Assembly: GCA_024663395.1 (NCBI GenBank)
Contig: JANFAH010000002.1
Coordinates: 6,448,001 to 6,512,000, forward strand
Origin: Pisolithus tinctorius
Taxonomy: Eukaryota > Basidiomycota > Agaricomycetes > Boletales > Pisolithaceae
Reading direction: 5' to 3'
DNA length: 64,000 nucleotides
Under the pieces are notes generated by a model. That model worked only from the letters and a program-made list of their open reading frames with translations. It was not told the DNA's origin and did no database searches. Of the stretch, positions 1 through 34,570 are shown piece after piece. Position 1 is the stretch's first letter. Each line of letters starts with the position of its first letter. The position numbers were made by a program, and so were the translations under genes.

Positions 1-2170
1 GCAGCAATGGCAAGGCAACCATGAGACTCCAGCACACTGCCATCACATGAGATCACTTACATCCTGAAGAGCAGCAATGGCAAGGCAACCATGAGACTCC
101 AGCACACTGCCATCACATGAGATCACTTACATCCTGAAGAGCAGCAATGGCAAGGCAACCATGAGACTCCAGCACACTGCCATCACATGAGATCACTTAC
201 AAGCTGAAGAGCAGCAATGGCAAGGCAACCATGAGACTCCAGCACACTGCCATCACATGAGATCACTTACAAACTGAAGAGCAGCAATGGCAAGGCAACC
301 ATGAGACTCCAGCACACTGCCATCACATGAGATCACTTACATCCTGAAGAGCAGCAATGGCAAGGCAACCATTAGACTCCAGCACACTGCCATCACATGA
401 GATCACTTACAAACTGAAGAGCAGCAATGGCAAGGCAACCATGAGACTGCAGCACACTGCCATCACATGAGATCACTTACATCCTGAAGAGCAGCAATGG
501 CAAGGCAACCATGAGACTGCAGCACACTGCCATCACATGAGATCACTTACAAACTGAAGAGCAGCAATGGCAAGGCAACCATGAGACTCCAGCACACTGC
601 CATCACATGAGATCACTTACATCCTGAAGAGCAGCAATGGCAAGGCAACCATGAGACTCCAGCACACTGCCATCACATGAGATCACTTACAAGCTGAAGA
701 GCAGCAATGGCAAGGCAACCATGAGACTCCAGCACACTGCCATCACATGAGATCACTTACAAGCTGAAGAGCAGCAATGGCAAGGCAACCATTAGACTCC
801 AGCACACTGCCATCACATGAGATCACTTACATGCTGAAGAGCAGCAATGGCAAGGCAACCATGAGACTCCAGCACACTGCCATCACATGAGATCACTTAC
901 AAGCTGAAGAGCAGCAATGGCAAGGCAACCATGAGACTCCAGCACACTGCCATCACATGAGATCACTTACATCCTGAAGAGCAGCAATGGCAAGGCAACC
1001 ATGAGACTCCAGCACACTGCCATCACATGAGATCACTTACAAGCTGAAGAGCAGCAATGGCAAGGCAACCATGAGACTCCAGCACACTGCCATCACATGA
1101 GATCACTTACAAACTGAAGAGCAGCAATGGCAAGGCAACCATGAGACTCCAGCACACTGCCATCACATGAGATCACTTACATCCTGAAGAGCAGCAATGG
1201 CAAGGCAACCATTAGACTCCAGCACACTGCCATCACATGAGATCACTTACAAACTGAAGAGCAGCAATGGCAAGGCAACCATGAGACTCCAGCACACTGC
1301 CATCACATGAGATCACTTACATCCTGAAGAGCAGCAATGGCAAGGCAACCATGAGACTGCAGCACACTGCCATCACATGAGATCACTTACAAACTGAAGA
1401 GCAGCAATGGCAAGGCAACCATGAGACTGCAGCACACTGCCATCACATGAGATCACTTACATCCTGAAGAGCAGCAATGGCAAGGCAACCATGAGACTCC
1501 AGCACACTGCCATCACATGAGATCACTTACATCCTGAAGAGCAGCAATGGCAAGGCAACCATGAGACTCCAGCACACTGCCATCACATGAGATCACTTAC
1601 AAGCTGAAGAGCAGCAATGGCAAGGCAACCATGAGACTCCAGCACACTGCCATCACATGAGATCACTTACATCCTGAAGAGCAGCAATGGCAAGGCAACC
1701 ATGAGACTCCAGCACACTGCCATCACATGAGATCACTTACATCCTGAAGAGCAGCAATGGCAAGGCAACCATTAGACTCCAGCACACTGCCATCACATGA
1801 GATCACTTACAAACTGAAGAGCAGCAATGGCAAGGCAACCATGAGACTCCAGCACACTGCCATCACATGAGATCACTTACATCCTGAAGAGCAGCAATGG
1901 CAAGGCAACCATGAGACTCCAGCACACTGCCATCACATGAGATCACTTACATGCTGAAGAGCAGCAATGGCAAGGCAACCATGAGACTCCAGCACACTGC
2001 CATCACATGAGATCACTTACATCCTGAAGAGCAGCAATGGCAAGGCAACCATGAGACCCCAGCACACTGCCATCACATGAGATCACTTACATCCTGAAGA
2101 GCAGCAATGGCAAGGCAACCATGAGTCTTCAGCACACCATCATCCTATGAGACCACTTACAAACTGAAAA
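1..2170 (-). repeat. 70-bp tandem array, 31 units, each a 67-nt intron plus 3 nt
   Basis: Thirty near-identical 70-bp units start at position 1; unit 31 (2101-2170) is more diverged. Read on the minus strand, every unit begins GTAAGTGATC, carries CTCAT (CTAAT in four units) about 28 nt before its end, and finishes TCTTCAG. These match a 5' splice site, a yUnAy branch site and a 3' splice site. Exactly three bases separate one TTCAG from the next GTAAGT. Nearly all unit-to-unit variation falls in those three bases (GAT, CTT, TTT or CAT). The other differences are the n of the branch site, one G/C two bases before the branch motif's T-C run, and one base in unit 30. No splice signal is broken. 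The array reaches the window edge, so its full length is unknown. Confidence 0.97.
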
Positions 2171-2233
2171 GCAACAGTGGCATAACAACCATGAGACTCC
2201 AGCACATTGTAATCAAACAAGATCACTTACCAC
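61..2233 (-). other. 32 putative 3-nt micro-exons of the GTPase gene
   Basis: In unit n the triplet lies at 70n-9 to 70n-7. In transcription order, starting at 2231-2233, the triplets read GTG, TTT, GAT, GAT, CAT, GAT, TTT and so on to GAT at 61-63. If every intron were removed, each exon would add one codon in phase 0 to the GTPase. Totals are 15 Asp, 8 Phe, 6 Leu, 2 His and 1 Val. If splicing stops at any unit, translation reads the retained intron as Val-Ser-Asp-Leu-Met and meets TGA. The frame and phase are directly visible. Whether exons this small are used is inference; skipping the whole array as one long intron is equally possible. Confidence 0.5.
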
Positions 2234-2300
2234 CTGTTGAGCAGCAGTAGCAGAGAAGCCATGAGACATCAGCCACACAACACAAACTTTGTGTACATAC
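2171..2300 (-). repeat. Two decayed array units; intron 7 of the GTPase
   Basis: Unit 32 (2171-2240) and the sequence 2234-2300 are diverged relatives of the 70-bp unit. The 2234-2300 segment is a 67-nt intron, the same length as in the array. It begins GTATGT, keeps CTCATGG and ends CAACAG. It directly follows the coding exon ending in Phe-Pro-His-Leu-Trp. Divergence falls from the gene outward: intron 7 is most different, units 32 and 31 are intermediate, units 30 to 1 are nearly identical. This suggests that an ordinary intron plus 3 nt of exon was the founder. Confidence 0.85.
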
Positions 2301-3439
2301 CCATAGATGTGGAAAGTACCCCATACATGATTCAACAATGCTTCTTCCATCACTCTCAAAACTTGTCCTGCAGCATGTGAGGTAATGTTCCATTTCATTA
2401 CCTGACACTTACCTCTTCATTGCCATTTCCACACTAATCATTAGATTTTCTCTTTGTACAGCCACTAGCATATGTCTTAGTACATCCTCATGCAATGCAT
2501 TTGCTGTTTCTATTATCAAGGCACTGCAGCTTGCACCAGGTTCATGCATATCTGACCCACACCAATCAACCAAATTTAATGTAAGCATGGATGAATCTTA
2601 CTTTCCAACCTGGCATATTTTGGTGAACTCCCCTTTATTACATTCCAGTACTCATCCTGAAAAATCTTCTCTGCCTCTTCATTGATATCCTCCAAGGTCG
2701 GAGTAGCATTTCCTTCAGATCTGTCTTCCAATTCCATCTGAACATCTAGTTTGAACTGGTCATACTTCGTGAAAACTGCAATCACTGGCACTGTGTATCA
2801 CACATGTATCAGACTCAACGTGTGGCCTCGCAATTCAGACATACCATTTTTATCTGAACAAACAGCATCAAAGAATTTCATGTCCAAGCCTGGACGAGCA
2901 CTTTCCATTGGAATGCAATACCTAGAAATGGCTCGTGAGCTCACCAATCCCATGAGTTAGCAATAACACTTGTAACACACCAGATAGCATGCAGCCTGTC
3001 CCGCAATCGGCGCTCAGTCACCTTTCTGTGCACAAAATCTTGCACTGCTCGTAGCTCGTCTTCATTGCCAGCCTCAAAACCACAAGAGTCATGGAAAACA
3101 TAACCCTCGTGATTCGTGAATATGAGCTCGTCCTCGATATCATGATTGCCACACTAATCGTGTCCAAGTCAAAAAATGCCTATCACCGACAAAGACTGTT
3201 GACTGACCTCAATAGTAGGGTCGAGATGAACCTAATTAAATAATAAGGTCGGGAGCGTTCAAAACTAGGCAAGACGCTACCTCTTCACGGCGACCTCCGC
3301 TAACCCTGTAAATCTTCGGGCTCTCCGTCGTTTCGCAGACTCTTTGTAAGATGGATGTCTTCCCTGCATTTGCCCTACCGATGATGAGGACTCGAAACTT
3401 GAGACGCCGGACAGCATCACGCAGTGGTTTGTCACTCAT
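2231..3439 (-). CDS. P-loop GTPase of the fungal 'G domain-containing protein' family
   Basis: Exons assemble cleanly on the minus strand: 3439-3305, 3231-3208, 3153-2981, 2921-2845, 2790-2602, 2551-2413 and 2367-2301, then the micro-exon array. All junctions are GT-AG with consistent phase. G1 is GRANAGKT in exon 1. G3 is HDSCGFEAG in exon 3, followed by LHAIWYCIP. G4 is FTKYD in exon 5. These are the hallmarks of a large agaricomycete family of predicted GTPases that bind and hydrolyse GTP; their cellular role is not known. Exon 7 ends GYFPHLW. The first in-frame ATG is at 3437-3439, just before the G1 strand, so an upstream exon is possible. No frameshift or premature stop is present. The C-terminus depends on how the adjacent 70-bp array is spliced. 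The simplest alternative is retention of the next intron, ending in Val-Val-Ser-Asp-Leu-Val-stop near 2213. Confidence 0.85.
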
Positions 3440-33624: not shown

Positions 33625-34570
33625 TGGATTGCCTTTCGTTTGGGGTGGCTCGGTACCGCCGCCAGAGATAGGGGATATACTATGCTTCTACATCAGCCGG
33701 AGAAGCTTCCTGATCCATAGAGGGACGGCGCACCTGGACCCTTCATCCGCATAGGCTTGGGGGTCGCTCTCCATTTGAAGTGACTCGATATCATCGCCAA
33801 CAGGAAGGAATAATCTGGACTTCAGCGTCAGCCGGGGAAATCCCTGGCCCATGGAGGGATGGCACACCTGGTTCCTTCATTCGCATAGGCTTGGGGATTG
33901 CTTTCCATTTGAGGTTCGATAGCGAGGCCAACATCAGGGAGGAAACTGTACTTTAGTGTCAGCCGGAGAAGATGCCTGGCCCATGGAGGGATGGCACACC
34001 TAGCTCCTTCATCCGTATAGACTTCGAGGTTGGCTCCCATTTGAGGTGGTTGCATACCACTGCCAAAAGCACGGAAGGATCTGTACTTCAATGTCAGCCG
34101 GAGAAGCTTCCTGGCCCACAAACATAAAAGGGAGGCACACCTGGTCCATTCATCCGCACACTCTTGGTGGTTGCTCTCTATTTGAGGTTCGAAAGCACTG
34201 CCCAAATCAGGGAAGAAACTGTACTTCAGCGTCTGCCGGAGAAGTTTACTGGCCCATGGAAGGACGGCACACCTGATTCCTACATCCGTATGGTCTTCGG
34301 GATTGCTTGTCATTTGAGGTGGCTCAAATGTAGTGTCTAAGGTACTGCACTTCTACATCAGCGGGGAAGTTGCTTGACCAATAGAGGGACGACACACCTG
34401 GTTTCTGAATCTGCATAGTATTTCAGACTGTTTGGCCATAGGGTCGGCGGGGTGTTATCGGCGAGTGAACTGTTGAATCTACATCCATGTCAGCTAGAGA
34501 AGGTGTCAAGCCTGTAGAGAAATGGCTCACCCGATTGGGGGACCAGCATAGTGCCAGAGCTTCCCTCGAT
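33625..34570. repeat. Degenerate tandem repeat, about 131-bp unit, seven copies
   Basis: The phrase 'gccggagaag' or a variant recurs at 33696, 33831, 33962, 34097, 34235, 34361 and 34492, giving spacings of 126-138. Each unit also holds 'cctggcccat(gg)agggatggcacacctgg' and 'ttgaggt' variants. Copies differ by many substitutions, so the array is old. One more unit is at 50160-50300. Confidence 0.85.

Follow-up and report, generated by a model that had tools for sequence, protein, structure and literature searches.

Arrays of similar introns separated by predicted one-codon exons in GTPase genes of Pisolithus tinctorius

A long tandem repeat that adjoins a GTPase coding region raises the question of whether it is a noncoding repeat or a series of introns, each of which would deliver a single codon to the mRNA. 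The window, which is the whole stretch of 64,000 nucleotides that was analysed (G000:C2:6448001-6512000, from the 92.5 Mb genome of Pisolithus tinctorius), contains this repeat at positions 1-2267, with a period of 70, 32.4 copies, 95% matches, 0% indels and a score of 4051 in Tandem Repeats Finder. On the minus strand, 31 full units and one unit cut at the window edge were found, each composed of a 67-nt intron (GTAAGTG..TTCAG) and then exactly 3 nt, in agreement with the at least 32 consecutive units counted earlier from the letters of the DNA by a model (the sequence-only reading). The junction proposed by that reading was also found: GTPase exon 7 terminates in CCACATCTATGG (..PHLW, phase 0) and is followed by a 67-nt intron that contains CTCATGG as its core, and then by the codon GTG. 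The array ends outside the window, at C2:6447014, with a total of 47 one-codon exons, 32 of them within the window; 45 of the 46 introns between these exons have 67 nt and one has 64 nt. The statement that variation spares every splice signal did not hold, since the branch-like CTCAT, a putative splice signal, is CTAAT in four window units. A further tandem repeat was observed at window positions 33693-34325 (period 132/273, 73-76% matches).

Table 1. Position of the modelled GTPase exons and of the intron array in the window.
Feature	Position	Strand	Basis
GTPase exon 1, P-loop GRANAGKT	3281..3439	-	gene model
GTPase exon 2	3208..3231	-	gene model
GTPase exon 3	2981..3153	-	gene model
GTPase exon 4	2845..2921	-	gene model
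GTPase exon 5, FTKYD motif	2602..2790	-	gene model
GTPase exon 6	2413..2551	-	gene model
GTPase exon 7, end ..FPHLW, phase 0	2301..2367	-	gene model
Intron 7, 67 nt, CTCATGG core common to array introns	2234..2300	-	gene model
One-codon exon no. 1, GTG = Val	2231..2233	-	gene model
Array, window part: 67-nt introns and one-codon exons TTT GAT GAT CAT GAT ...	1..2230	-	repeat and gene model
Final one-codon exon within the window, GAT	61..63	-	gene model

The full gene model has 58 exons, ordered as seven GTPase exons, 47 one-codon exons and four ordinary exons; 57/57 introns are GT-AG, and the reading frame stays open for 425 aa. The predicted protein starts with MSDKPLR.., and its translation contains the P-loop GRANAGKT (GxxxxGKT) and TKYD (TKxD), as in P-loop GTPases of the TRAFAC type. 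The four C-terminal exons read LPILNILRPFFVQ / IGLDLHDPHKLHHVLI.. / ..STLIFESAS..FVLEHRL / GQVQRPYTGC-stop, and all of them lie beyond the window edge. The array had been placed at the end of the gene, as the source of a tail, but it is actually interior, with a C-terminal domain downstream outside the window. Two annotated P. tinctorius proteins, P0001 and P0002, match L010 and L009, respectively, and both models seem to be mis-spliced at the array. P0001 contains AALQA and has exon 7 joined almost directly to the C-terminal exons, while P0002 has intron pieces read as exon and is devoid of the LPILNILRPFFVQ exon.

The 3-nt exon is held with great constancy. When 3' splice sites were located independently, the exon length was exactly 3 in 747/766 resolved units from 24 loci (16 unresolved and 3 of other length). 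AG stands 3 nt ahead of the next 5' splice site in 895/902 units of 32 loci, a set in which one of each near-identical pair was dropped and units in stretches >120 nt were left out. Among these 902 units, 202 depart from the modal length of their locus; in 161 of them the departure is not a multiple of 3, and the exon still has 3 nt in 196 of the 202. Stop codons account for 2/1043 codons, both being the same TGA in the L015/L016 pair. After removal of pairs, 1 stop was counted in 323 distinct locus-codons, against a mean of 19.5 and a minimum of 9 when positions were shuffled 1000 times inside each locus. The shuffle is the relevant stop test because the raw stop-triplet frequency is low in the introns too (0 to 0.18 at 18 intron offsets, mostly below 0.04), and the introns hardly vary. 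The TGA exon lies near coding-strand position 3106 in L015 and 3208 in L016, and a stretch with one unresolved unit precedes it.

These data bear on an alternative explanation, a neutral minisatellite with chance splice-like motifs, whose transcripts stop before the array or retain it. Minisatellites are common in fungi, the tandem repeat is near-perfect, and the annotated models do not treat the units as one-codon exons. However, such a repeat is at odds with the stop depletion relative to position shuffles and with the 3-nt length held in length-changed units, as well as with the 46-51 stops that each frame contains when the L009 array is read unspliced. A C-domain ORF past the array, the relative's protein P0003 described below, and the occurrence of arrays with several differing intron sequences at nearly all the GTPase loci examined also count against it. 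The stop depletion, the constancy of exon length and the C domain past the array led to the rejection of a noncoding minisatellite, and the neutral repeat with chance motifs is regarded as very improbable.

The codons themselves are restricted in kind. GAT, CTT, TTT, GCT and CAT make up 43/46 codons counted in L009. Over 35 arrays, C is the last base of the one-codon exon in 1/1043 codons, and T is the third base in 161/178 codons of the four GTAAGT-type arrays; this third-base bias is possibly a -1 rule of the 5' splice site. In most GTGAGT-type arrays, position 3 is variable too. The idea that introns entered a pre-existing, unique coding sequence was considered and rejected, given the few codon kinds per array and the biased third positions. 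No common linker chemistry was seen, the net charge ranging from -14 to +5 and the hydrophobic share from 0.09 to 0.58, and there was no excess of adjacent identical codons (143 vs 125.0 ± 9.5 in shuffles, inside the shuffle range).

A sequence from a close relative shows what a spliced product may look like. P0003 is a protein of 418 aa on a contig of 1,811 bp, consisting of a G domain, 40 residues and a C domain. The four loci like the window locus share with it 254-261 residues out of 276 in the G domain and 53-61 out of 62 in the C domain, the best being L011 with 61. All 40 residues of its interdomain segment, VPLRGWWGRLLGLGRAARLLGLRAARLLAGALDLGDTRAI, are within the repertoire of the four related arrays, and 0/6562 overlapping homologue control windows are; 38 of the 40 are NNT-encodable, a value reached by 13/6562 control windows. 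Since a genomic version would need >4 kb at the intron sizes seen here, the P0003 template was without the introns, being either a cDNA or a copy of a cDNA. Removal of the introns with retention of the codons, as judged from this one sequence of a relative, is supported. A second P0003-like sequence was not retrieved, as the search with the P0003 region returned itself, P0001 and P0002, and the search with a 156-aa fragment returned none. The proposal that splicing yields one codon per intron thus gains support from P0003, from stop avoidance, from the 3-nt constancy and from the downstream C-terminal domain. Transcripts ending before position 2300, which the sequence-only reading had named as evidence to the contrary, are contradicted by P0003 as far as the relative is concerned.

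P0003 is also informative about whether the array is mostly excised as a single long intron that starts at its first 5' splice site and ends at its last 3' splice site, with the one-codon exons rarely used. All skips are in frame, and P0001 joins exon 7 almost straight to the C-terminal exons. Nevertheless, P0003 keeps 40 codons, and both stop avoidance and exon diversity suggest translation. Moreover, P0001 looks like a prediction artefact because its AALQA can be read as the end of an array intron followed by one codon. Excision as one block is improbable as the main fate of the array.

The earlier view of a single locus gave way to that of a family, as 34 further loci of the genome have such arrays, which makes 35 of the 36 GTPase loci examined in P. 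tinctorius. Three are near copies of the window locus (C2:6237945, C2:6312639 and C43:67035), each with an array. The final part of the G domain as a query gave 96 matches, from which 20 loci were sampled, with arrays in 20/20. The P-loop query gave 137 matches at E<=0.001, both-haplotype copies counted, and of 12 further loci taken from them, 11 have arrays and only L044 does not. The stretch examined of L044 (C4:3012838-3015038) contains 44/88-bp repeats instead of a one-codon array, and this locus may be another state of the gene. Three near-identical pairs among the 20 sampled loci, L013/L014, L015/L016 and L021/L024, have flanks 99.5-100% identical and are probably two haplotypes. Contig C43 looks like the other haplotype of a dikaryon because it carries near-identical copies of C2 loci (L021/L024, L015/L016).

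Three main intron types were distinguished: GTAAGTGATCTCATG with a 70-nt unit, GTGAGTGGAGYCATGG with one of 78-81 nt, and GTGAGTGATTTGATGG with one of 82 nt. Most introns of the latter two types have CTGAC at 37-39 nt from the 3' end. The parsed arrays contain from 5 to 69 codons, those of L033-L043 having been parsed from partial stretches, and the mean interior intron heterozygosity per array is between 0.015 and 0.36. One exact unit pattern of the GTGAGTGGAGYCATGG type occurs 709 times in the genome and 0 times as a reversed control. Units of the GTGAGTGGAG type were also seen at C2:4832023-4832274, where no P-loop match is among those listed.

Variation within the arrays is concentrated in the exons. 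Of the 28 arrays with at least eight modal-length units each, exon position 1 surpasses all interior intron sites in 25, position 2 in 26 and position 3 in 13, and the mean exon heterozygosity is 0.64/0.65/0.41 vs 0.10 for the intron. In L009, exon bases 1/2 have values of 0.64/0.62, while interior intron sites average 0.024 and reach 0.20 at most. The branch-like motif varies less than the interior mean in 23/28 arrays; the 5 in which it varies more include L009. Exon and intron appear to vary with little reference to each other: unit pairs with identical introns share the codon in 213/1050 cases (0.20), a value near the base rates of the individual loci (0.00-0.24). They are not fully decoupled, since codon sharing drops slightly with rising intron distance (0.20, 0.18, 0.18 and 0.14), and the coupling is at most weak.

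Between the members of 411 nearest-intron pairs, the difference per site is 0.59, 0.62 and 0.32 at exon positions 1, 2 and 3 and 0.0081 in the intron, which makes the exon value 73, 77 and 39 times higher. Codon diversity of this kind could be due to a mutator acting locally or to errors made at the exon junction when units are duplicated, and not to selection. The 73- and 77-fold excess is large for selection alone, and the variable position 3 of most GTGAGT-type arrays also fits a mutator. Against it, the predominance of T and near absence of C at position 3 make the variation uneven over the 3 nt, and the codon series is the same in L013/L014 and L021/L024 and nearly the same in L015/L016. 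A mutator origin is considered rather unlikely. Among the 25 listed pairs with flanks >90%, the codon alignment is far above shuffles for these three near-identical pairs, and marginally above 100 shuffles for L011/L012 and L031/L032. For L009/L010, whose flanks are 97.1% identical, the codon-series score is 8.0 vs 2.4 ± 3.9 in shuffles (maximum 14.0).

A C-domain ORF was found downstream of the array in 24/24 long loci, with a strong score in 4 and a weak one in 20. The match has E of about 1e-20 to 1e-21 in the four loci like the window locus, and 0.004 to 1.7 in the other 20; the post-array translations of the weakly matching loci have a common ILVFEYLYFLLQ-like motif. When the C-terminal exon was used as the query, only the four loci like the window locus matched, and their C-terminal ORF has a pN/pS of 0.50. 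For the GTGAGT-type loci, eight were tried and the pattern matched six (L017, L019, L020, L022, L026 and L029). The pooled C-terminal ORF of these six gave a pN/pS of 5.05 (pN 0.034, pS 0.007), although constraint had been expected, and this nonsynonymous excess is perhaps due to selection or conversion. In an alignment of 31 homologues, 18 of them, including three from Pisolithus, keep most of the C-terminal domain, and the interdomain segment varies in length and sequence exactly where the array sits. The predicted Lactarius homologues have another length and sequence at that place.

Regarding protein class, Pfam MMR_HSR1 scored 18.0 bits on P0003, under the cut-off of 21.9, and for P0003, P0001 and P0018 the Pfam matches with E of 1 or less included no WD family. 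The AlphaFold model of P0003 has a pLDDT of 81.6, with the lowest confidence at the linker and both chain ends. Its best PDB matches were BDLP (E 1.1e-5) and GM4951 and Irga6 (E 2e-4 to 1e-3), with TM-scores of about 0.2-0.4, so that the predicted fold weakly resembles dynamin-like and immunity-related (IRG) GTPases.

Taken together, the reading preferred here, to which a probability of roughly 0.8 is assigned, is that the homogenised introns carry, through recombination and splicing, a diversified series of codons that encodes an interdomain linker. In this large family of P-loop GTPases, some 5-69 one-codon exons, all in phase 0, make up the array that separates the G domain from a C-terminal helical domain, and the spliceosomal introns, of about 50-100 nt, range from similar to near-identical within one array. 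Every intron would be spliced out on its own by its GT..AG ends, most introns having CTGAC or CTCAT as the branch-like motif, and the mRNA would gain one amino acid per intron, in frame through to the C domain. Because a 3-nt exon is too small for two spliceosomes at once, the introns would be removed sequentially, most simply by intron definition. Growth and shrinkage of the array by unequal recombination or conversion inside the introns would homogenise them, while diversifying selection, more likely than a local mutator, would keep the codons different. The product would be a fast-changing linker between the domains, which may serve an immune-like GTPase as a recognition surface.

A more ambitious version sees a diversity-generating system, in which the introns are the handles and the single codons the cargo, and in which variable splicing and germline reshuffling produce a linker repertoire. 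Any subset of codons could be joined in frame, since the cargo exons are one codon in phase 0 and the array splice sites are nearly equal. If true, a very large linker repertoire could be obtained from one gene, e.g., for self/non-self or partner recognition, but this extension is considered doubtful.

The introns could conversely be the product and the codons mere spacers, like the SNORD115/116 tandem introns of SNHG14. Tandem intron arrays with intron function do exist, as the available part of the SNHG14 source describes 48 tandem introns encoding SNORD115 (PMC11608373). Both systems have dozens of consecutive introns of one kind, those of SNHG14 carrying snoRNA-like RNAs; exons that code for protein do not figure in the available part of that source. 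However, an Rfam scan of the window gave no match at the gathering threshold, and spacers are not expected to be stop-depleted or sited between two protein domains. This explanation is given almost no credence.

The nearest mechanistic precedent is CNN00420 of Cryptococcus neoformans, a single-copy gene with six introns, of which 3, 4 and 5 are identical, supported by ESTs, whose intron gain is ascribed in the accessible portion of the paper to tandem expansion of about 107-nt repeats including exon ends (PMC2395259). The likeness is that of a basidiomycete gene with consecutive introns of one sequence, and in the Pisolithus arrays, too, consecutive introns are near-identical and the unit spans exon and intron, with a copy number that varies among arrays; unlike the Pisolithus arrays, CNN00420 is without one-codon exons or hypervariable codons as described in that portion (PMC2395259). 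Tiny exons are shared with the Schistosoma MEGs, which encode secreted proteins and have exons of 3-81 bp and introns up to 5 kbp (PMC10526429), but MEG exon lengths are mixed and homogenised intron arrays are not described in the part of that source available. The aphid bicycle genes are a divergent family of putative effectors with small internal exons and, in a megacycle gene, >100 microexons (PMC9168663). Many tiny exons of one phase are present in both families, nearly all phase 2 in bicycle genes and phase 0 in Pisolithus, whereas one-codon exons and tandem copies of one intron are not described in the sections available for the former (PMC9168663). In Podospora, het-d/het-e undergo concerted evolution within and between loci, with four residues per WD repeat under diversifying selection, according to the corresponding excerpt (PMC1805685). 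The likeness is one of pattern, with homogeneous repeats whose few codon bases are the most variable, for which selection or a local mutator may be responsible in Pisolithus; the difference is that the het-d/het-e repeat is a coding WD40 and the Pisolithus repeat is an intron with one coding codon each, and the proteins differ.

Introners are near-identical introns dispersed across unrelated genes; the Pisolithus observation that bears on such dispersal is the single unit pattern with 709 genomic occurrences, against 0 for its reversed control. No description of single-codon-exon arrays with tandem introns was found among the open-licence papers listed, and none of the systems above, as far as described in the parts available, is known to unite one-codon exons with dozens of homogenised introns across a gene family.

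If the preferred reading is true, spliceosomes would be able to process dozens of consecutive 3-nt exons per transcript, and introns would serve as a homogenised carrier of hypervariable coding sequence, one codon each. The arrays offer a natural setting in which to study intron definition, sequential splicing and the gain of introns through repeat expansion, and they may belong to a recognition or immune-like gene family of ectomycorrhizal mushrooms that has been misread in P0001 and P0002.
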